Below, piece after piece: positions 8,060 to 24,610 of a stretch of DNA of 64,000 bases (positions within the stretch are counted from its first letter, which is position 1; each line of letters starts with the position of its first letter). The position numbers were made by a program, and so were the translations under genes. Source of the stretch: Desulfomarina profundi (GTDB lineage Bacteria > Desulfobacterota > Desulfobulbia > Desulfobulbales > Desulfocapsaceae); contig NZ_AP024086.1 in the NCBI RefSeq assembly GCF_019703855.1, positions 2,066,501 through 2,130,500 of the forward strand, written 5' to 3'. Under the pieces are notes generated by a model, which was given only the letters and a program-made list of their open reading frames with translations, was not told the origin of the DNA and made no database searches.

Positions 8060-10522
8060 ATGACAGACAAGACTCTAATAATTGCGGAAAAGCCCAGTGT
8101 GGCAAGTGATCTGGCGAAAATACTGCCCGACAGATTTAAAAAAACCAAGACCCATTTTGAAGGACAGAAGTACGTTGTTTCCTACGCTATCGGCCACCTG
8201 GTTTCCATCTGTTATCCAGAAGAAATTGATCCCGCCTACCAGAAATGGGATATCAACAAGCTCCCCATCCTGCCGGAAAGTTTCCCCCTGAAAGGACTGG
8301 ACGGCACAAAAAGTCAGCTGAATGCCCTGCAGAAACTCATCCGCCGAAAGGACATTACAGAAATCGTCAATGCCTGTGATGCCGGTCGTGAAGGAGAACT
8401 GATTTTCAAATACATTATAAAATATGTATGGAACAAGTCTGTAGCCAAAAAAACATTTAAACGCCTCTGGCTGCAGTCCATGACCGCAGATGCGATCAAG
8501 TCAGGCTTTGCCAATCTCAGGGACAGTGAAGAAATGCTCCCCCTTGAAGACACAGCTCTCTGCAGGTCCGAATCCGACTGGCTGATCGGGATCAACGCAA
8601 CCAGAGCACTGACCGGCTTCAATTCGCGTAACGGTGGTTTTTTTCTTACACCCTGCGGCAGGGTACAGACTCCGACGCTGTCACTTCTGGTCCAGCGGGA
8701 GCGATACAGGATGAATTTTATCCCCAAACCGTACTGCACCCTCCATGCTGATTTTGTATTCGACAATATTACGTACAACGGTAAATGGATTGACCCGTCC
8801 TTTAAAAAAGATCCGAATGATTCCTATAAACGTGCAGACAGAATATGGGATCCTGAAAAAGCGGCTGCAATCATCGCCAAGTGTACAGGTCAGCCGGCAA
8901 CCGTAGAGGAAAAAAGCAAACAGACCAGCCAACGTTCCGCCCCTCTGTACGACCTCACCCTGCTCCAGCGTGAGGCCAACTCCCGTTTCGGCTTCTCCGC
9001 CAAGAACACCCTGTCCATCGCCCAGGCTCTCTATGAAAGACACAAGGTCCTCACCTACCCCAGAACGGACAGCAAACACCTGCCGGAAGATTACCTGCCC
9101 ACGGTGAAAAAAACCGTGCAGAGCCAGACCCGGTGGCAACTTGCCGAATTTGCCGAAACAGCCCTGAGAAAAGGCTACCTGAAACTCGAAAAACGCATTT
9201 TCAACAACAGGAAAATTTCCGACCATCATGCCATTATCCCCACCACACTGATACCGAAAAATCTCTCGGAAGCAGAGCTCAAAATTTACAGAATGGTGGC
9301 ACAGCGTTTTCTCGCTGTATTTTTCCCACCTGCACTTTTTTTAAATACAAAACGATTCTCCCATGTCATGGATGAGACCTTCCTGACGGAGGGCAAAATA
9401 CTCAAGGAACCTGGCTGGAAAATTATCTACGGAGCAGGTAGCGTAGACAAAAAGGAGAAAATGCTCACTCCCGTACCTGACTCTGCTGACATCTCCTGCA
9501 AGAAAATCACCAGGGAGGATCTGGAAACGGTTCCCCCACCCAGGTACAACGAAGCAACACTGCTCTCGGCCATGGAAAATTCCGATAAACTCGTAGAAGA
9601 CGAGGAACTGGCCGATGCCATGAAGGAACGAGGCCTGGGAACCCCCGCCACCAGGGCCTCTATCATTGAAAAACTGATCAAGGAAAAATATGTGGTCAGA
9701 GAGGGTAAGGACCTTACTCCCACCGGTAAAGCGTTTGAGCTTCTGGCTCTTCTGGAGGCTATGAAGATCGATGTCCTGGCTTCTCCAGAGCTGACAGGAG
9801 AGTGGGAGCATAAATTGAACCAGATCCTCAAGGGGACGTTTACCAGGGCCAAATTCATGGATGAAATACGGGCAATGACCATCCATATTATCAACCAGGT
9901 CAAAAACTTCGAGAAAACAGAAGTCAGGGCGGAGGCCCCTTTCAGTCCCGTCAATAATATCCGCTTCTTTTCCTCTCCCACTGCTTATGTTTCTGAGGAC
10001 CAGAAGATTTCCATCAGAAAAATCCTAGGCGGCAGAGTTATGACCAATGATGAAATCGTCGCTCTGCTGGAGGGTAAAACAATCGGCCCGTTCAGTGACT
10101 TCAGGTCAAAAAAGGGAAAACCGTTTTCAGCCTCACTTCGGTTTACCAACGGAAAAATAGAATTTCTCTTTGAAAAATCAACCGCCGACCTGGACATCGA
10201 TGCCATCAAAAAGGGCGAGGTTCTCGGCATTTCTCCGGTGGACAACACAAAAGTTTATGAAACTCCGGCTGCTTTCATGTCTGAATCGGCACTTGACGGA
10301 GACGAGAAAAATGGTCTTAGAATTGGCAAGATAATCCTTTCAAAAACGCTGGACACCACTCATATCCGACAGTTGTTGAAAGACGGAAAAACAGAACTGA
10401 TCAAAGGGTTTATTTCAAAGAAACGAAGGCCGTTCGATGCCTATCTGCTCCTGAACAAAAATGGCAGAATCAGCTTTGAATTTCCTCCACGTAAATCCAG
10501 AAAAAAAGAACAAAAAAATTGA
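8060..10522 (+). CDS. topB: DNA topoisomerase III (type IA)
   Basis: Type IA topoisomerase that relaxes negative supercoils and decatenates DNA via a 5'-phosphotyrosine. The 820-residue protein opens with the Toprim domain (TLIIAEKPSVASDLAK, then NACDAGREGELIFKYI near residue 110). The catalytic tyrosine lies in VLTYPRTDSKHLP near residue 335. The C-terminal 200 residues carry two copies of the topoisomerase C-terminal repeat: NIRFFSSPTAYVSEDQKISIRKILGGRVM...FTNGKIEFLFE and VYETPAAFMSESALDGDEKNGLRIGKIILSKTL...NKNGRISFEFP. These replace the zinc fingers seen in topoisomerase I. It precedes rsfS by 30 bp on the same strand. Whether it belongs to the housekeeping or the mobile-element class of topB cannot be told, but the context looks chromosomal. 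Confidence 0.93.
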   Translation: MTDKTLIIAEKPSVASDLAKILPDRFKKTKTHFEGQKYVVSYAIGHLVSICYPEEIDPAYQKWDINKLPILPESFPLKGLDGTKSQLNALQKLIRRKDITEIVNACDAGREGELIFKYIIKYVWNKSVAKKTFKRLWLQSMTADAIKSGFANLRDSEEMLPLEDTALCRSESDWLIGINATRALTGFNSRNGGFFLTPCGRVQTPTLSLLVQRERYRMNFIPKPYCTLHADFVFDNITYNGKWIDPSFKKDPNDSYKRADRIWDPEKAAAIIAKCTGQPATVEEKSKQTSQRSAPLYDLTLLQREANSRFGFSAKNTLSIAQALYERHKVLTYPRTDSKHLPEDYLPTVKKTVQSQTRWQLAEFAETALRKGYLKLEKRIFNNRKISDHHAIIPTTLIPKNLSEAELKIYRMVAQRFLAVFFPPALFLNTKRFSHVMDETFLTEGKILKEPGWKIIYGAGSVDKKEKMLTPVPDSADISCKKITREDLETVPPPRYNEATLLSAMENSDKLVEDEELADAMKERGLGTPATRASIIEKLIKEKYVVREGKDLTPTGKAFELLALLEAMKIDVLASPELTGEWEHKLNQILKGTFTRAKFMDEIRAMTIHIINQVKNFEKTEVRAEAPFSPVNNIRFFSSPTAYVSEDQKISIRKILGGRVMTNDEIVALLEGKTIGPFSDFRSKKGKPFSASLRFTNGKIEFLFEKSTADLDIDAIKKGEVLGISPVDNTKVYETPAAFMSESALDGDEKNGLRIGKIILSKTLDTTHIRQLLKDGKTELIKGFISKKRRPFDAYLLLNKNGRISFEFPPRKSRKKEQKN

Positions 10523-16477: not shown

Positions 16478-18817
16478 GTGATAAAAACAGTTGTGAAAGG
16501 TCGCGATGAAAACGGCAGGCGTATCAGCTCAATGCAGTTTGAAAAGCTGGTGCGCGAAGCCGCAGAATTGCCCAGGGCCTCTGAACTCGTCCTTGAATCC
16601 TACGGGCAGCATAATATAGGTATCAGGCTGCAGAGAAAAGGGGGCATCCACCTGACTGTCAAGGGACCTTCAGGACAGCGACTGGGCTGTATGGGGATGC
16701 CGGGTACAACTATCCGCTGCGAAGGTGCAACATCTGATGATGTCGGTTATCTCAACATTGGCGCAGAAATAACGGTCCTCGGTGACGCTACCAATGGTGC
16801 CTGCAATGCCATGGCCAACGGTAAGGTATTTATTGCCGGTTCCATCGGTGCCCGTGGATTGACCATGACCAAATGGAATCCCGATTATGAAAGGCCAGAA
16901 CTCTGGGTTCTCGGTTCCACCGGTGACTCCTTTGCTGAATTCAACTGTGGCGGTATTGCCGTTGTCTGCGGTATTGATCCCAAAAACCCGGAAAATATCC
17001 TCGGCTATCGCCCCTGTGTGGGAATGGTTGGTGGATCCATCTATTTCAGAGGGAAAATAGACAATTCCTTTCCACCGCAAAATGCCAAACTGGTCGATCC
17101 CGACGATGAACAATGGCAATGGCTGATGGATAATATGGTCGGTTTTCTCGAAAACATAAACCGTACTGACCTCCTGAAAACCCTGTCTGTCAGGGAAGAG
17201 TGGCGGATGTTACTCACAGTTACCCCCCAGGAAAGGGCTTTAATGTGGTCCGGCCCCATGCCCATGGCGGAGTTCCGGAATAACTACTGGAACAAGGCAT
17301 TCGGAGGAGATCCGCTGAGAGATCTCGCTCCGGGACTGGAGCGTTCTCCCATTGACACCATTGTAACCGGTGATCTTCGTCGCAGAAAACCATACTGGGC
17401 CAACTGTGAGTCAGCCGCGCCCTGTACATATTATTGTCCAATTCATATTCCCACCGTGGACAGACTCAGGTTGATACGGGAGGGACGGATAGATGAAGCC
17501 TATGAAATGATCCTGCAGTATACACCGCTGCCGGCCTCGGTCTGTGGCGCTGTCTGCCCGAACCTCTGCATGGAAAACTGCAGCCGTCAAAACGTCGACA
17601 CTTCCATTGATGTCCAGGTCCTTGGACAATCTGTCAACACATCAAAAACTCCGGAAGCGCAGCCTCCCACCGGAACAAAAGTTGCCGTAATCGGTGGGGG
17701 TCCCGCAGGTATGAATGTTGCCTGGCAGCTGGCTCTTAACGGTATTGAAACCACTATTTTTGAACAGGACAACCAGATCGGAGGCAAACTGGCCCAGGTT
17801 ATCCCCTGGGAGCGCCTTCCCCAGGCCATCTGGGATCAGGAAATCAAAAGATTCCTTGAAACTCCCAATATATCAGTCAATCTCAACACATCCCTGACCC
17901 GGGAAAAGTTTGAAGAACTGCAGAAAAAATACGATTACGTTGTTGTCGCCGTGGGAACACACGAGCCTCGCAGAATCCAGTTTCCCGGCAACGAAAAAGT
18001 CATTCCGGCCCTCGATTTCCTGAAATCAGCTAAAAGCGAAAAGCCCATGACCGTGGGGAGAGAAGTTGTCGTCATAGGAGCCGGTAATGTGGGCTGCGAT
18101 GTTGCCTGTGAAGCATACCGACTTGGTGCAGAAAAAGTCACCCTGGTAGACATCCAGAAGCCCCTGGCCTTTGGTAAGGAAAAAGAGGCGGCAGAAGCGC
18201 TCGGCGCTCAATTCAGATGGCCCGTGAGCACAAAAGAGGTCACGGAAGAAGGTCTCGTCACCGACGAAGGAGAACTGATCCCAGCCCAGACTGTTATTAT
18301 CTCCATTGGAGACGTTCCTGCCCTTTCTTTTTTACCGAAAACTGTTGAAACAATAACAGTTGGAGGTGCGTCATGGATTACCACAGATAAATCCCATGTG
18401 ACCTCCGATGCCAGGATTCTTGCCGTGGGTGATGTGGAAAAACCAGGCCTTGCAACCAATGCCCTGGGCGCAGGTAAAACCGCTGCGGAATATATCATTG
18501 CCACCGAAAAAGGAGTTGAATACCATCCTTTTGACCGACAGCTTATACCGCAGCAGGCGTTGACCATCACCCATTATATACCTGAAGAAAGGGGTGAGAC
18601 AGAAAATGACCAGGCAGACCGCTGTCTTTCCTGTGGTTCCTGCCGGGACTGCCATCTCTGTGAAACAATCTGTCCAACCGGTGCTATTACCCGCAGGGAC
18701 CTGGGAACAGGACAGGAGAATGGCTATGAATATATCTCTGATGATACAAAGTGTATTGCCTGTGGCTTCTGTGCTGATACCTGCCCATGTGGCATCTGGG
18801 CCATGAATACATTCTGA
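16478..18817 (+). CDS. Glutamate synthase, GXGXG domain fused to NAD(P)H oxidoreductase and ferredoxin domains
   Basis: This 779-residue protein starts at GTG 16478 with AAGGAG about 6 bp upstream. Residues 1-245 match the GltB C-terminal GXGXG beta-helix (repeats such as GYLNIGAEITVLGDATNGACNAMANGKVFIAGSIGARGLTM). Residues 300-390 carry the Cys-rich entry domain of GltD-type proteins (ANCESAAPCTYYCPIHIPT, ASVCGAVCPNLCMENCSRQ). Two dinucleotide folds follow, GGGPAGMNVAWQLALNG for FAD and VVIGAGNVGCDVACEAYRLG for NAD(P)H. The end has two ferredoxin motifs (CLSCGSCRDCHLCETICP, CIACGFCADTCPCG). It joins in one chain what E. coli keeps in GltB and GltD, and supplies electrons to the FMN subunit. 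Confidence 0.9.
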   Translation: MIKTVVKGRDENGRRISSMQFEKLVREAAELPRASELVLESYGQHNIGIRLQRKGGIHLTVKGPSGQRLGCMGMPGTTIRCEGATSDDVGYLNIGAEITVLGDATNGACNAMANGKVFIAGSIGARGLTMTKWNPDYERPELWVLGSTGDSFAEFNCGGIAVVCGIDPKNPENILGYRPCVGMVGGSIYFRGKIDNSFPPQNAKLVDPDDEQWQWLMDNMVGFLENINRTDLLKTLSVREEWRMLLTVTPQERALMWSGPMPMAEFRNNYWNKAFGGDPLRDLAPGLERSPIDTIVTGDLRRRKPYWANCESAAPCTYYCPIHIPTVDRLRLIREGRIDEAYEMILQYTPLPASVCGAVCPNLCMENCSRQNVDTSIDVQVLGQSVNTSKTPEAQPPTGTKVAVIGGGPAGMNVAWQLALNGIETTIFEQDNQIGGKLAQVIPWERLPQAIWDQEIKRFLETPNISVNLNTSLTREKFEELQKKYDYVVVAVGTHEPRRIQFPGNEKVIPALDFLKSAKSEKPMTVGREVVVIGAGNVGCDVACEAYRLGAEKVTLVDIQKPLAFGKEKEAAEALGAQFRWPVSTKEVTEEGLVTDEGELIPAQTVIISIGDVPALSFLPKTVETITVGGASWITTDKSHVTSDARILAVGDVEKPGLATNALGAGKTAAEYIIATEKGVEYHPFDRQLIPQQALTITHYIPEERGETENDQADRCLSCGSCRDCHLCETICPTGAITRRDLGTGQENGYEYISDDTKCIACGFCADTCPCGIWAMNTF

Positions 18818-18819
18818 TG

Positions 18820-18865
18820 TAACTGGTCACAGGATTTGTAACTCTGTATTTTCATCCATATTAAA
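18820..18865 (+). repeat. 45-bp dispersed repeat, copy 1
   Basis: The segment TAACTG(G/A)TCACAG(G/A)(A/G)TTTGTAACTCTGT(A/G)TTTTCATCCA(T/C)ATT occurs here directly after the glutamate synthase stop codon and again in the same orientation at 54462-54507, with about five differences. It contains no coding capacity. Its nature (repetitive extragenic element or remnant of a larger one) is unknown. Confidence 0.55.
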
Positions 18866-18904
18866 CCTGTAAGTGATCAGGAACGCAGCATGAAAGGGCA
18901 CAAA

Positions 18905-19180
18905 TTATGATCGGCGTATCAGCCGAATACTCACATCATATCTGGCTGTGTCAATATCTGCAGGGAGCAGGCGTGCATCCGGAACCATTATTGTCAGAAC
19001 CCTGCCCCGCTTCGGGTCTTTTGCCTGTTTGGTTCTGCGCTCCATACCCGAGGGACCGGCAACACCTTTTCGGGGTGGACGAACATGGAGCAGTTGGGCT
19101 TCAATAGACTGGGTTGCGGCCGGCGGCAGTTTTTTTCCTTCCGCTTTCAGGGGAGGAATTGAGCCAATTATTATTTCCAT
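18905..19180 (-). CDS. Small basic protein of unknown function
   Basis: An open frame of 91 residues on the minus strand, between the glutamate synthase operon and the kinase-phosphatase fusion gene. I accept it because AAGGAG lies 7 bp upstream of the ATG at 19180 and no other gene explains this stretch. The product is Lys/Arg/Pro-rich (MEIIIGSIPPLKAEGKKLPP at the start, ERRTKQAKDPKRGRVLTIMVPDARLLPADIDTARYDVSIRLIRRS at the end), with no signal peptide, no Cys motif and no membrane helix. I do not recognise a family. It is oriented opposite to both neighbours. Confidence 0.55.
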   Translation of the reverse strand: MEIIIGSIPPLKAEGKKLPPAATQSIEAQLLHVRPPRKGVAGPSGMERRTKQAKDPKRGRVLTIMVPDARLLPADIDTARYDVSIRLIRRS

Positions 19181-19428
19181 TTTCCCGCTCCTTTCTCAGG
19201 ATTCTTCCTCATGTTGCCCAGATCCGTTTTATCACCTGTGCTCTTTTAAACAATAATCTATCTTCTCTATTAACATACCGCTTTTCTGTACTTTTTCAAT
19301 GTTTTCTCTCTTACATTCACAGTAATAGAGAGAGGGACGTTCTTTTTTCCTGGCAATGCATTCTCTTTTGCAGGTAAATTGCATGCATTACCCGGAACAA
19401 ATTTAAATCGCCATCATGAATCACTGCA

Positions 19429-21510
19429 ATGAAAGACCCACTGAAGAAAATTCTCACACCAATAAGTGAACTGCAGAACATCAGGGGAGTTGACCTGCCC
19501 ATTGGCCTTGAATTTCTTCAGCTGGTGGTAACGGGCCCGCCAGGTGCAGGTAAATCACACTATATTGACCAGATACGAGGATGGCCCAATGAGGGATTTC
19601 TTGATCTGACAAAAAAAGGCTGGTGGAAAGACCAGTCACTGCTGTACAGGCCACGGGAAGTCCACCTGGGCCTGCCTTTTAAAGGCTACAGCGAGTCACT
19701 GACCGTGTTTGACAAGGAATGGCTTGATGCCATTCCTTTGCCTGTCCTTGAGCCTGCCAGAATCAAAATACCCCCCAACAAGGAACTTCCCTTTCATACC
19801 AACTGGCGAAATCGCTACATCTTTGAGTTTCTCATTCCTGATGCAGCAACCATATTTCAACAACGGCTGTCAAGGCAGAACGAAGGGTATTTCCCGGTCG
19901 ACGAAAACCTGTCAATGGAAATGGTTGAACAGCAGGTCGCAGTCTACAGGGAAGTCGCTCTCTATCTTCATCGGGCGGGGCTCAATGTCTACATTCGCCA
20001 GGGACTTGATTATCCCCCCATGAGAATTGCGGAAAAAGGCATCTCCAATGTACCACGCTGGGCGTTTGACAGGAAACCGGACCGCCCCAGTCTGAAAAGT
20101 CTGGCAGGATGGAAATGGCTCTTCCTCAGGCGATATCCCATCAAATGGCTGACAATTACTCATGAGGAACAGAAAATAACGACCGCCAGTCGGATTGCCC
20201 ATGACGGTAAGACTTTTGAGCTTATTCTTGGAAGTACAGGACTGCGCTTTCATCCTGAAATCCCCCTGGGTGTCAAGAAAAAGATGATCAGGAAAAACTG
20301 GATCATCAACACTGAGCAGGCCTGTTCCACGAAGCAGATAAGCGGCTTTGCGCGAATACGTGTAGGAGAAACAGTTATTATTGGACGAGACAACCGGGAA
20401 TACGACGACCTCTTTCATTTTAAAAAGAACGTAGCCAAACGCCACGTGAGTGTCACAAACAGAAAAGGTGATCTGGTCATCACACCGCTTGATATGGACT
20501 CCGAAGTCCGCATAGTCCGTTTTGACAACCTCGATTACCGGGAACGGATGGCATCAAACCGCTACCACTCACTGCTGAAAATAAAAGAGTTATTCCGTGG
20601 TCCCGTGGGTATTCTTGCTGACGACAAGGCCTTGGAACTCATTCGAAAAGTCAACAAACTGCTTGTAGAAGAACCTCTACGCCCCCGCAACAAAGAAAAG
20701 AAGGTCGGCGGACTTGTCGAACTCACCGGCAAAACAACACCCGTTATTGTCGGCGATCTCCATGGACAAGTGGATAATATACTGAAAATACTCTCAGAAA
20801 ACTGCCTGTTTGACTGTCTCAGGCTGAAAACAGCAACACTGGTCATCCTGGGAGATGCCATTCATTCTGAAAATGCTAACGAAATGGATGATTTCGACAG
20901 TTCCATACTGATGATGGATCTGCTTTTTCTTTTAAAACTGCGTTTTCCTGAAAATTTTTATTACCTGCGTGGAAACCACGACAGTTTCTCCCCGACCATC
21001 AGTAAAAACGGTATTCCCCAGGGCACTCTTATGAAAAAACGTCTCCTTGAACTGAGGGGAGAAGAGTATATTATAGAAATGGAAAAGTTCTATTCCCTGC
21101 TTCCCCTGGTCATCAGCTCAAAAAAATTCGTGGCCTGTCATGCGGGTCCTCCGAGGACAAAGGTAACCAGGAAAATGCTGATCAATATAGCTGATCATCC
21201 TGAACTTGCCCAGGACCTGATAACAAACAGGCTCCAGCGCCCTCATTTTCCTGGAGGTTACAACAAGGGAGACGTAAAAAAATTCCGCAAAGGTCTTCAT
21301 CTTCCGAAAAAAACTGCATTTATCGTTGGCCATACTCCCCTTGATCCTTTTGGAAGCATATGGAGGGATGTGGGGGCAATAAAGAACCATCACATCATCT
21401 ATTCTGCCCACACTGAGGGCCCAAGCCTTTTTGTCGGCCTGGACAACAAAGTTGTGCCTATTACTTTCCCGGCTGAACCCTTGACAAAACTGATAAACAA
21501 ACTGAAATAG
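19429..21510 (+). CDS. Fusion protein: P-loop kinase, FHA-like domain and PPP-type metallophosphatase
   Basis: A 693-residue cytoplasmic protein with three recognisable parts. Residues 36-43 (GPPGAGKS) are a Walker A motif within a compact kinase-like domain. Residues 305-365 resemble an FHA phosphopeptide-binding domain (IIGRD at 317-321, VAKRHV at 335-340), with Ala in place of the usual Ser before KRH. Residues 438-690 have calcineurin-like phosphatase motifs in order: GDLHGQ (442), GDAIHS (475), GNHD (515), HAGPP (571) and GHTP (634), the metal and phosphate ligands of the PPP family. The combination recalls bacterial Pnkp (kinase plus PPP phosphatase) but lacks the ligase, and the FHA segment is inference. 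Its substrate is unknown. DUF47 and pit genes follow after a 311-bp gap. Confidence 0.72.
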   Translation: MKDPLKKILTPISELQNIRGVDLPIGLEFLQLVVTGPPGAGKSHYIDQIRGWPNEGFLDLTKKGWWKDQSLLYRPREVHLGLPFKGYSESLTVFDKEWLDAIPLPVLEPARIKIPPNKELPFHTNWRNRYIFEFLIPDAATIFQQRLSRQNEGYFPVDENLSMEMVEQQVAVYREVALYLHRAGLNVYIRQGLDYPPMRIAEKGISNVPRWAFDRKPDRPSLKSLAGWKWLFLRRYPIKWLTITHEEQKITTASRIAHDGKTFELILGSTGLRFHPEIPLGVKKKMIRKNWIINTEQACSTKQISGFARIRVGETVIIGRDNREYDDLFHFKKNVAKRHVSVTNRKGDLVITPLDMDSEVRIVRFDNLDYRERMASNRYHSLLKIKELFRGPVGILADDKALELIRKVNKLLVEEPLRPRNKEKKVGGLVELTGKTTPVIVGDLHGQVDNILKILSENCLFDCLRLKTATLVILGDAIHSENANEMDDFDSSILMMDLLFLLKLRFPENFYYLRGNHDSFSPTISKNGIPQGTLMKKRLLELRGEEYIIEMEKFYSLLPLVISSKKFVACHAGPPRTKVTRKMLINIADHPELAQDLITNRLQRPHFPGGYNKGDVKKFRKGLHLPKKTAFIVGHTPLDPFGSIWRDVGAIKNHHIIYSAHTEGPSLFVGLDNKVVPITFPAEPLTKLINKLK

Positions 21511-21634
21511 TTCTCTGATATGAAAATCTGAGACAAGAGTTAATTATTGACATTCTGTCAAAAGTTGTTAATCACAGCGTGCAAAGACAGAACAGTTCCC
21601 ATGAAGGTCTGTACTGCTGATCATAAATTACCTT

Positions 21635-21776
21635 GTGTCTGTCCAGAAATGAGATTTTTGTTCGAGTTCAGGAAGCATAGGAAAATAAAAAGCGCAGCAT
21701 ATTAGGCATATGTGAGCATTTTTATTTTTCGTAACGACTCAGAAATCGGGCAAAAAGGCCATTTATGGACAGGCAC
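21635..21776. repeat. 142-bp element with inverted ends, copy 2 of the CCTGTCC family
   Basis: The left end reads GTGTCTGTCCAGAAATGAG and the reverse complement of the right end reads GTGCCTGTCCATAAATGGC, giving about 18-bp imperfect terminal inverted repeats. It matches the layout of 10937-11073. It fills the gap between the kinase-phosphatase fusion gene and the DUF47 gene and ends 46 bp before the latter's start codon. No open frame inside. Confidence 0.68.
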
Positions 21777-21822
21777 TACCTTAAAATCCCGGCTTTAAAA
21801 AGTTTCATCAGGAGGTTGCAGA

Positions 21823-22509
21823 ATGGCTTTTTTACCCAACAGTCCACTTTCCGGACTCTTGCGCGGATCACCTTTTAAACCGATACAGGAACATATGCAG
21901 GTTGTTTTTTCCTGTGTCTGCCTTGTCCCGCCACTTTTTGACGCACTGTACAAGAAAGATTCGAAACAACTCTCTGAGGTGGCGGAGCAGATAAAATCCC
22001 TGGAAACCGATGCCGACAAACTCAAATCCACTTTCCGGCTCAACATGCCGAAATCCCTCTTTCTACCTGTGGACAGAAAAGATCTTCTCAGTCTTATCGG
22101 CGATCAGGATCATATTGCCGACACTGCAGAAGAAATCTGTAAAATTCTTACCTATCGTCAGATGGAAGTCCCGGAAGCGATAAAGGAGCTGCTTGATGAA
22201 CTACTCGAAGGGACCATGGAAATCGCTTCCGAAGCCAAGGCCATGATCGAGCAACTGGACGAACTGCTCGAACTTGGTTTTGGTGGACGTGAATTCGACA
22301 AAGTCTCGCAGATGATATCGGGGGTGCGCCGCAGCGAACATAATATCGATGCCATTCTCCACCGTACGAGAACGGCACTGTTTGCAATCGAAAATGACCT
22401 CACGCCAGTCTCTGTCATCTTCTGGTACAAGTTGATTGACCTTCTCGGAAATATTTCCGATCAATGTGAAAACCTGGCTGACCGCCTGCTGCTTTTTCTG
22501 TCAAAATAA
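21823..22509 (+). CDS. DUF47 / PhoU-like protein partnered with the phosphate transporter
   Basis: A 228-residue all-helical protein of the TIGR00153/DUF47 family, distantly PhoU-like. Features are PLSGLLRGSPFKPIQEHMQVVFSCV at the start, then long amphipathic helices with SLETDADKLKSTFRLNMPKSLFLPVDRKDLLSLIGDQDHIADTAEEI, which is the diagnostic block. Such proteins are usually encoded immediately before Pit transporters and are thought to regulate phosphate uptake. That arrangement is seen here, with the pit start 22 bp downstream. AGGAGG lies 7 bp before the ATG. Confidence 0.9.
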   Translation: MAFLPNSPLSGLLRGSPFKPIQEHMQVVFSCVCLVPPLFDALYKKDSKQLSEVAEQIKSLETDADKLKSTFRLNMPKSLFLPVDRKDLLSLIGDQDHIADTAEEICKILTYRQMEVPEAIKELLDELLEGTMEIASEAKAMIEQLDELLELGFGGREFDKVSQMISGVRRSEHNIDAILHRTRTALFAIENDLTPVSVIFWYKLIDLLGNISDQCENLADRLLLFLSK

Positions 22510-22531
22510 TTTTACCATAAGGAACAATCAG

Positions 22532-23797
22532 ATGGAAATTATTGCTGCATACGGCACTACCATGATCATTCTGGCCGTTATTTTCGGACTCTACATGACA
22601 TGGGGAATAGGTGCGAATGATCTGGCAAACGCCATGGGAACTTCCGTCGGAGCCGGAGCTGTCTCTGTAAAACAGGCCATCATCATCGCCATTATTTTTG
22701 AATTTTTAGGGGCAATCCTTGCTGGAGGACATGTCACTAAAACCATCAGAAAAGGTATCATTGATCCCAGTGGAATTATCAATAACCCCGAAATTCTCGT
22801 TTACGGCATGCTGGCATCCCTGCTTGCCGCCGCGGTCTGGTTGATGGTTGCTTCCGCCAAGGGGTGGCCTGTCTCCACTACCCACTCTATCATAGGAGCT
22901 CTCATCGGTTTTGCCATCGTCGGTATAGGGCCTGATTCCGTGAAATGGACCAAGGTGGCCAGTGTTGTGCTCAGCTGGATTGTCTCTCCGATCATGGGAG
23001 GAACAATAGCTTTTCTCCTGGTCATGAGCACCAGAAAACTGATTTTCAATACTGACAATCCCCTGAAAAACGCCAAAAAATATGCCCCCGTCTATATCTT
23101 CCTCGTGGGTTTTATTATCTCTCTTGTCACCATGTTCAAAGGTCTGAAACATCTTCATATCAGCATGAGCACCGGACAAAGTTTTGGCTTTGCTGTCTTG
23201 TTCGGAGCCCTCACCGCCTCGGTTGGCTGGTATTTTATCAGAAATGTCAAGGAAGATATCAGTGCCAACCGTGAATTCAGTTATGCAAGTGTGGAAAAAG
23301 TTTTTACTCCCATGATGCTGTTCACTGCCTGTTCCATGGCCTTTGCCCATGGATCAAATGATGTGGCAAACGGTATTGGGCCTCTGGCGGCAGTTTACAG
23401 TATCGTCAGCTCCGGTGGGGAGGTCATGCAGAAATCCGACCTGCCATTCTGGATACTTCTCCTTGGTGGCGCCGGAATTGTCATTGGCCTTATTACCCTC
23501 GGTTACAGAGTTATGCTCACCGTCGGCAAAAAAATCACTGAACTCACTCCTTCCCGTGGTTTCTGCGCAGAACTTGCCGCAGCAACCACGGTTGTCATAG
23601 CATCAAGGACAGGACTTCCTGTATCCACAACCCATATCCTTGTCGGCTCCGTTCTGGGTGTAGGACTGGCCAGGGGCGTGGGAGCACTGGATCTTCGTGT
23701 GGTTCTGAATATCGTCATTTCCTGGGTCGTAACCCTGCCGGCAGGTGCAATTATGGCGATGCTCTTCTTTTTTACCCTCAAGGGTATATTCAGCTGA
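22532..23797 (+). CDS. pit: Low-affinity inorganic phosphate transporter, PiT/PHO4 family
   Basis: A 421-residue multi-helix inner-membrane symporter for phosphate (as metal-phosphate or with cations). The two family signature repeats are visible, TWGIGANDLANAMGTSVGAGAVSVKQA near residue 24 and AHGSNDVANGIGPLAAVY near residue 270. Each is paired with a GxPVSTTH motif (AKGWPVSTTHSIIGALIGFA, RTGLPVSTTHILVGSVLGVG). I chose the ATG at 22532 (AAGGAAC upstream) over the longer frame starting inside the DUF47 gene. It ends at a clear terminator shared with the convergent gene downstream. Confidence 0.94.
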   Translation: MEIIAAYGTTMIILAVIFGLYMTWGIGANDLANAMGTSVGAGAVSVKQAIIIAIIFEFLGAILAGGHVTKTIRKGIIDPSGIINNPEILVYGMLASLLAAAVWLMVASAKGWPVSTTHSIIGALIGFAIVGIGPDSVKWTKVASVVLSWIVSPIMGGTIAFLLVMSTRKLIFNTDNPLKNAKKYAPVYIFLVGFIISLVTMFKGLKHLHISMSTGQSFGFAVLFGALTASVGWYFIRNVKEDISANREFSYASVEKVFTPMMLFTACSMAFAHGSNDVANGIGPLAAVYSIVSSGGEVMQKSDLPFWILLLGGAGIVIGLITLGYRVMLTVGKKITELTPSRGFCAELAAATTVVIASRTGLPVSTTHILVGSVLGVGLARGVGALDLRVVLNIVISWVVTLPAGAIMAMLFFFTLKGIFS

Positions 23798-23840
23798 AAA
23801 AGAACCCCGGAAGCCAAAACGGAGCTTACGGGGTTCTTTT
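23797..23840. terminator. Bidirectional intrinsic terminator between pit and the PKD-protein gene
   Basis: AAAAAGAACCCCG and CGGGGTTCTTTT form a stem of about 12 bp around a 19-nt loop; the flanking A- and T-runs make it function-like on both strands. It lies just after the pit stop (plus) and 36 bp beyond the stop of the convergent gene (minus). Confidence 0.8.
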
Positions 23841-23875
23841 GATAATTCTTCTGTTTTAGCTGACATTAATAAAAG

Positions 23876-24610
23876 TTACTCCTCAGCAAGGGTGAAACTC
23901 CGCGACCGACTCTCTCCCGTCAACTCCCCTGTTTCGTTAAATCCCCGCACTCGAAAACTGTATCTTTTACCTGGAGAAAACTTCATGGAAAGAACTTTTT
24001 GGGACAGGTAATAACTCCCCTTTTTTGTATAAGCCGTAAAAAACGGCTCCTTCATTTCCTTTTGATAAAATTCAATATGATATATTGAAACAGCAGAGGT
24101 TCCCGACCACTCAATCTTTTGACCACTCATGTGAATTTCAGTTTTATTTTCAGGCAATTCTATCAGCAACCCAACAACGGTCTCCGCTTTTTTAGCCTCC
24201 ACATGGTAGATAGCTTCAGGAAAATCAATTTTCTGAAACGCCGATTCAGGTTCTGTTATAATGAACTGCAACTTATGTGCCCCTTCCGAATAGGTAGGCA
24301 GCCGTGGTGCACTCGGTGTTTTCAGGGTCAACACCTTTCCGTAATACAGATTCTTCTGGACGCGTTGGATAATTCTCCTGTCCACTTTCCAGTACCCTTT
24401 GAATATACCTGACCCGTTATAATGGATCTCTACTACTCCCCTGAGGTTCCGGGAATTTCTCGTCACCAGAATAAGCGGCCGATTATTTTCTTCAAAAAAG
24501 ACCCTCATCCTGGTAATTCTCAACCTGCCGGCTGCGACAGAACGCAGGTTAACCTTTGTGGCGCCGCTTCCGGATCGAAAATTCTGTGCCGTGAAATTCC
24601 TTCTGTACAC
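23876..24610 (-). CDS. C-terminal part of the secreted PKD/putative-Ig protein (after a frameshift)
   Basis: This 244-residue frame continues the gene at 24697-25494. It stays open back to about 24756, where one extra base in the CCCCC run at 24757-24761 (GGGGG on the coding strand) would join the two. The joined text reads STRGEFLAGGRVLGYNNTPLNISLNKSQPSVSETVAIPPSVLSF and runs without a stop into this part. The product is beta-rich, and its last 90 residues look like a fibronectin-type domain (YHIEFYQKEMKEPFFTAYTKKGSYYL...GKRYSFRVRGFNETGELTGESRSRSFTL). It has no signal of its own, consistent with being only the distal part. Function unknown. Confidence 0.7.
   Translation of the reverse strand: MYRRNFTAQNFRSGSGATKVNLRSVAAGRLRITRMRVFFEENNRPLILVTRNSRNLRGVVEIHYNGSGIFKGYWKVDRRIIQRVQKNLYYGKVLTLKTPSAPRLPTYSEGAHKLQFIITEPESAFQKIDFPEAIYHVEAKKAETVVGLLIELPENKTEIHMSGQKIEWSGTSAVSIYHIEFYQKEMKEPFFTAYTKKGSYYLSQKVLSMKFSPGKRYSFRVRGFNETGELTGESRSRSFTLAEE

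Follow-up and report, generated by a model that had tools for sequence, protein, structure and literature searches.

A kinase and a phosphatase are joined in one chain in bacterial Pnkp, which is laid out as a P-loop kinase, a PPP phosphatase and a ligase, in mammalian PNKP, which combines an FHA domain, a phosphatase and a P-loop kinase, and in PPIP5K, the eukaryotic inositol pyrophosphate kinase-phosphatase, whose kinase has the ATP-grasp fold. In published accounts, bacterial Pnkp is described with its ligase domain and its partner Hen1 (PMC4411300), and PPIP5K (Vip1, Asp1) is described with an N-terminal kinase, a small regulatory domain and a C-terminal phosphatase and with a place in phosphate homeostasis, the phosphatase being a histidine phosphatase inhibited by phosphate and the chain including a GAF domain (PMC11836120). 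Here we describe KFP, our name for a kinase / FHA-like / phosphatase protein of Desulfomarina profundi, which is an undescribed protein coupling kinase-like and phosphatase-like parts. As in bacterial Pnkp, a single chain runs from a P-loop kinase into a PPP-superfamily phosphatase, but KFP has no ligase, carries a beta-rich insert between the two parts, has a changed second PPP motif and is partnered by transport genes. Mammalian PNKP unites the same three kinds of part in a different order, but with a HAD phosphatase and a true phosphothreonine-binding FHA domain. The closest functional parallel is PPIP5K, whose kinase and phosphatase likewise stand around a small domain, with a histidine phosphatase, a GAF domain and an ATP-grasp kinase instead; we draw a parallel in function, not kinship. 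The two neighbors of KFP form a pair of the DUF47/PhoU_div-Pit type; KFP comes to this pair as a third gene, linked to a single close Pit group. A first reading of the DNA, made from sequence alone (hereafter the sequence-only reading), knew of no described system of this architecture, and the titles and abstract openings listed by searches of an open-access library likewise yielded no description of it.

The KFP gene is real: within the window, the 64,000-nucleotide stretch of genome that we analyzed, its exactly checked frame runs on the plus strand from an ATG at 19429 to a stop codon ending at 21510 and encodes 693 amino acids plus stop, and its homologs align end to end with the window protein at 53-78% identity. 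A scan of genome contigs gave 26 loci with KFP matches. A homolog that is complete or almost so stands at 18 of them, in carriers labeled Desulfobulbaceae, Desulfocapsaceae, Desulfopila, Desulforhopalus, Desulfobulbus or only Delta-/Proteobacteria; six belong to spirochaete MAGs (L018-L023) and comprise the phosphatase half alone; and two are fragments at contig edges. KFP occurs in 26 of 58 relatives and in 20 of 146 genomes from its order, where it is spread over two families, the window's own and one other, and a profile of the kinase and FHA-like parts run against 297 genomes of the phylum returned its own gene, three weak and partial matches and nothing else. Those that carry KFP are bacteria of a sulfur-cycle group and include the cultured Desulfopila aestuarii DSM 18488, Desulforhopalus singaporensis DSM 12130 and Desulfobulbus rhabdoformis DSM 8777. 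Phage and plasmid collections held no KFP match, PADLOC returned nothing for KFP, and Rfam found no match over window positions 18000-24500. In one MAG the gene (L016, 8001-10084) is broken across two frames, by error or decay, with DUF47 and Pit still downstream. A full-length structure model built on 35 sequences (pLDDT 83.8, pTM 0.69) places a P-loop fold at residues ~27-205, a beta-rich middle at ~237-366 and a phosphatase at ~385-690, with low confidence at residues 212-221; a second model of residues 1-396 (pLDDT 76.9, pTM 0.52) has nearly the same elements. Residue conservation is counted throughout in 38 distinct KFP sequences, the window's own included, two of which are cut at a contig end.

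The N-terminal part (window 19507-20043, plus strand; residues ~27-205) is, by model and conservation, predicted to be a P-loop kinase of the NMP/dNMP/polynucleotide-kinase kind, which upholds the Walker A kinase-like domain of the sequence-only reading. Walker A motifs, Walker-B-like aspartates and LID arginines have established roles in P-loop kinases. In KFP the Walker A motif (residues 36-43) reads GPPGxGK[S/T] in 38/38 sequences; D59, the RPRE motif at 74-77 and the LID-like R146 and R149 are likewise found in 38/38, W65 and W66 are invariant as well, and D95 (37/38) sits in an FDxE motif after a short strand. Walker A, the Walker-B-like D95, the LID arginines and the fold are the features of NMP/PNK-like P-loop kinases present in the protein, and the conservation of D59, RPRE, W65, W66, D95, R146 and R149 argues that the kinase part would be an active enzyme. 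Among the matches listed, Foldseek placed an archaeal adenylate kinase first (E 5.7e-4), and VIA-align, for which we treat Z differences under 1 as ties and a Z near 8 as middling, reached at best Z 8.2 (rmsd 3.9, 137 aligned; YorR and OdinAK) with rivals tied; the bacterial polynucleotide kinase 4gp7 scored Z 7.8 (rmsd 4.0, 126 aligned), thymidylate kinases Z about 7 and PPK2 Z 6.4-6.8. When profiles of relatives' proteins were compared, AAA_33 came first (P 5e-5 to 1e-4), followed by shikimate kinase (P about 2e-3), thymidylate kinase (about 4e-3) and PPK2 (0.2-0.3), and with none of these four kinase-family profiles did the alignment extend beyond the P-loop region. Family libraries gave weak hints, Pfam AAA_22 in 14 of 16 members (best E 0.049) and a PHROG ATPase in 13 of 16 (best E 0.008), and a PDB sequence search with the kinase profile alone found nothing meaningful (best E 0.62).

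Between the enzyme domains lies the beta-rich middle (window 20137-20526, plus strand; residues ~237-366), with an FHA-like core at 308-363 that contains IGR (318-320), VAKRH (335-339) and TNxxGDL (343-349). An FHA module had been proposed for residues 305-365, and about half of it can be recognized: the region is beta-rich in the model, and a profile built on 23 FHA sequences of relatives gave a match, 51 columns long, that places IGR and VxxRH in register, at P 6e-4 to 1.2e-3 and, with the whole protein, in which the same site was best, at P 2e-3. One of 150 column shuffles scored as high as the real match, and removing columns 291-375 abolished it (P 0.66). The match spans FHA columns 21-71 of 111, roughly half of the domain, but the last ~40 columns, with the C-terminal strands, have no match in the middle; residues 370-388 are a helix in the model, and a permuted arrangement of the FHA-like part could still be accommodated. 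Library models barely respond (Pfam FHA, E 0.2 in one of 16 members; an NCBIfam FHA-type model, E 0.16 in one of 16), and an FHA scan of the organism's own genome did not report the KFP gene; that genome has two Pfam FHA matches elsewhere and six Pkinase matches. No FHA chain stood among the best 50 matches listed per fold search, but kinases and phosphatases fill those lists, so this absence says little; a PDB sequence search with the middle alone gave nothing meaningful (best E 1.4). In FHA domains, an arginine and a serine contact the phosphate, and a glycine and a histidine are structural (PMC6468809). KFP keeps G319 in 38/38 and H339 in 36/38 sequences; R320 is present in 32/38, the arginine contact thus being lost in 6/38, the phosphothreonine-contacting serine of SxxH is alanine in 29/38 and serine in 4/38, and the FHA Asn-Gly columns hold S358-E359 in the window protein. 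Conservation is thus higher at the structural positions than at the binding ones, and the middle is probably an FHA-derived or FHA-like scaffold rather than a phosphothreonine reader, contrary to the phosphothreonine binding first suggested for it.

The C-terminal part (window 20581-21498, plus strand; residues ~385-690) carries GDLH (442-445), GDAxHSE (475-481), GNHD (515-518), H571 and GH (634-635). Its presumed metal-ligand positions, a role that we carry over from PP1, are D443, H445, D476, N516, H517, H571 and H635, each conserved in 38/38 sequences. Foldseek matched this part to PP2A, PPZ1 and PP5 (E about 3e-12 to 1e-11) and VIA-align to PP5 (Z 28.0, rmsd 3.1, 268 aligned); PP5 and PP1 are its nearest folds among the chains compared. 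The PPP signature is given as GDXHG, GDXXDRG and GNH(E/D) (PMC535813). In KFP the first motif is GDLH followed by alanine (28) or glycine (10) and the third is GNHD in 38/38, but the second reads GDAxHSE instead of GDxxDRG, with DRG in 0/38, so that the full motif set initially ascribed to the protein is absent although the metal-ligand positions and the fold do hold. On this altered motif, KFP phosphatase is predicted to be a divergent branch of the PPP superfamily and no canonical member; its activity we infer. H479, within the altered motif, is invariant in KFP and also in five spirochaete proteins aligned with it. The phosphatase half alone is clearly named by family libraries (Pfam Metallophos, 7e-9; PHROG NinI-like phosphatase, 2e-9), and NCBIfam matches to KFP are weak (PdeM best, E 7e-4). 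KFP was also considered as a bacterial Pnkp and rejected as such, in agreement with the sequence-only reading: the phosphatase fold reaches residue ~688 of 693, Pfam finds Metallophos only, and the chain has no C-terminal ligase. Of that reading as a whole, the gene and both enzyme folds stand, the complete PPP motif set falls, and the FHA claim survives by half.

The phosphatases of the Spirochaetota MAGs (L018-L023) are 35-40% identical to KFP residues ~390-690, and in the five of them that were aligned most metal-ligand positions and H479 are invariant; they differ in that the kinase and FHA-like parts are not fused to them and their neighbors are others. Neither DUF47 nor Pit was matched in their loci, so a tie to phosphate uptake does not hold for the phosphatase half in every case. 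These spirochaete genes lie in a cluster with an unnamed open reading frame directly 3' and several paralogous proteins without a Pfam match (three scanned, in L021). At L021, the sole spirochaete locus scanned, the cluster includes a gene with a Ser/Thr-kinase domain (Pfam PF00069, 8.5e-12), and the frame 3' of the phosphatase (8893-9813) matches no Pfam family and gives the bare impression of a PI4K/HipA-like protein.

The strongest result of our analysis is the link to phosphate. Downstream of KFP in the window, on the plus strand, lie a DUF47 gene (PhoU_div, PhoU-like; 21823-22509; Pfam PF01865, 1.5e-51), its conserved next neighbor, and a gene for a Pit-type inorganic phosphate transporter (22532-23797; Pfam PF01384, 2.4e-121), whose start we place at the first methionine of the conserved frame, the mechanical open reading frame beginning at 22436. 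CysP, a sulfate permease, is also a member of the PiT family. An aspartate in both GANDVANA motifs is taken as a sign of phosphate transport (PMC5840216), and the neighboring Pit has both (GANDLANA and GSNDVANG); it stays below the NCBIfam cut-off for both CysP (129 of 400) and PitA (100 of 800). We examined 56 loci for neighbors, 41 of them distinct and 39 of these with at least 500 nt downstream, and DUF47 starts on the same strand less than 500 nt downstream of KFP in 36/39. The phosphate link at which the sequence-only reading hinted is far stronger than it supposed. The KFP-DUF47 gaps measure about 45 to 429 nt, so co-transcription is unproven; promoter and terminator scans were uninformative, with no plus-strand terminator-like site listed between the two genes. 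DUF47-Pit is missing beside full-length KFP at three loci (L003/L047, L017 and L034).

Co-occurrence across 56 genomes, 25 of them KFP-positive when a remnant (G025) and contig-end fragments are counted, ties KFP to one group of transporters. Close Pit orthologs (79-100% identity) are found in 20 genomes, all with KFP, that is, in 20/25 KFP-positive genomes versus 0/31 KFP-negative ones (Fisher 7e-11, which ignores phylogeny and overstates the association because the genomes are related). Nine other genomes have a long Pit match at 47-49% identity, and outside the 20 no Pit match in any of the 56 exceeds 49%. Five KFP-positive genomes are without a close Pit (G003, G005, G021, G025 and G020): in the first three, which are 70-88% complete, the contig stops inside KFP, and G020 (locus L034), 99% complete, seems truly without one, having no close Pit or DUF47 anywhere, so KFP can exist without both. 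DUF47 matches of at least 157 bits within the family occur in 19 genomes, all KFP-positive; a second strong DUF47 copy stands apart from KFP in G031, a match of 159 bits comes from G042, a KFP-negative genome outside the family, and elsewhere in the order DUF47 and Pit occur in genomes that have no KFP.

The best reading of a chain that unites kinase and phosphatase and is linked to a transporter with its PhoU-like partner is that of a two-way switch, and we tentatively propose, at a little short of an even chance, that KFP is a bifunctional kinase/phosphatase that tunes phosphate uptake by DUF47-Pit through a phosphorylated signal. When ATP and phosphate are plentiful, the N-terminal P-loop kinase would make this signal, which could be a small molecule or a protein; the C-terminal PPP-like phosphatase would take it away; the FHA-like middle would join the two and decide which prevails; and the DUF47 protein, as a PhoU relative, would read the outcome and gate Pit. 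The DUF47 linkage, including the loci with other genes upstream, the co-occurrence with close Pit, the two Pit aspartates and the invariant or nearly invariant catalytic positions of both domains across 38 distinct sequences favor this proposal, as, in our count, does the Ser/Thr-kinase-domain gene near the L021 phosphatase. Counted against it are the middling kinase fold match (Z 8.2, many ties), a profile match confined to the P-loop region, the 3/39 loci without DUF47, the presence of KFP in G020 with neither partner close, the width of the KFP-DUF47 gaps and the spirochaete phosphatase loci without DUF47 or Pit.

Three observations would suit a P-loop domain that is no kinase but a nucleotide or energy sensor, whose binding of ATP would switch the PPP-like phosphatase on a phosphoprotein such as DUF47: known kinase profiles align with the P-loop region only, the spirochaete homologs are phosphatase only, and, of the chains compared, the protein phosphatases PP5 and PP1 come nearest to the phosphatase fold. 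This we consider unlikely, since the conservation of D59, RPRE, R146 and R149 (38/38) and of D95 (37/38) is more than ATP binding alone needs. In favor of a nucleic-acid role, polynucleotide kinases are among the tied folds (4gp7, Z 7.8), and at L182 and L184 the mismatch-repair gene mutL is the direct neighbor of KFP, the two genes being arranged head to head. KFP would then be a Pnkp-like end-healing enzyme, a 5'-kinase with a 3'-phosphatase, coupling kinase and PPP phosphatase as bacterial Pnkp does, and AAA_33, which we take to be the Pfam family holding polynucleotide kinases, is the best of the four kinase profiles (P 5e-5, P-loop only). Polynucleotide kinases carry a DxxR motif; if D59 is matched to its aspartate by strand order, the position three residues on holds an arginine in 14/38 sequences, but this is not conserved (Q15, R14, K6 and L1 are among the commonest). 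Against end healing stand also the missing ligase domain and conserved neighbors that are a transporter pair; mutL lies four genes downstream of KFP in several other loci, and the stretches of L176-L179 contain no mutL match. We therefore regard this role as quite improbable, and the repair function raised at the outset finds little support.

It is very doubtful that KFP is a polyphosphate enzyme, with a kinase half that makes or uses polyphosphate and a PPP-like half that hydrolyzes it. Structural alignments with PPK2 extend to as many as 170 residues (Z 6.4, rmsd 4.9), PPK2 genes are present in the genome, the neighbor is a phosphate transporter and the PPP superfamily does include endopolyphosphatases; but the PPK2 profile comparison finds nothing (P 0.2-0.3), the KFP Walker A GPPGAGK lacks the aspartate of PPK2 GxDxxGK (GRDAAGKG in the PPK2 compared), and the fit of several other kinases is equal or better. 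That KFP-DUF47-Pit is an inherited neighborhood around a household protein unrelated to phosphate uptake is likewise highly improbable: gltB-type genes lie upstream in 20 of 29 loci compared, so wide synteny is conserved, and three loci are without DUF47-Pit, but the triplet persists at seven loci without gltB-type genes upstream (L016, L176-L179, L182 and L184; in L012 and L015 the sequence upstream is too short to judge), and KFP and close Pit are jointly absent from 31/56 genomes. L182 and L184 are rearranged relative to the window, with KFP-DUF47-Pit staying together. Between gltB3 and KFP the window also has a minus-strand frame of ~90 amino acids (18905-19180, beginning MEIIIGSIPPL), found in 17 of 29 loci at 53-79% identity; the window copy has no Pfam or NCBIfam match.

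The bifunctional reading extends to a bolder one, that a single chain makes and destroys a messenger of phosphate status that DUF47 senses in gating Pit, a bacterial counterpart of PPIP5K assembled from unrelated parts. We think this a long shot, but if true it would be a bacterial nutrient-messenger system for phosphate independent of PhoR-PhoB. To our knowledge, the mechanism by which PhoU-like DUF47 proteins control Pit transporters is not settled, and a conserved KFP tied to one DUF47-Pit group would offer a direct way to test control by a phosphorylated signal.
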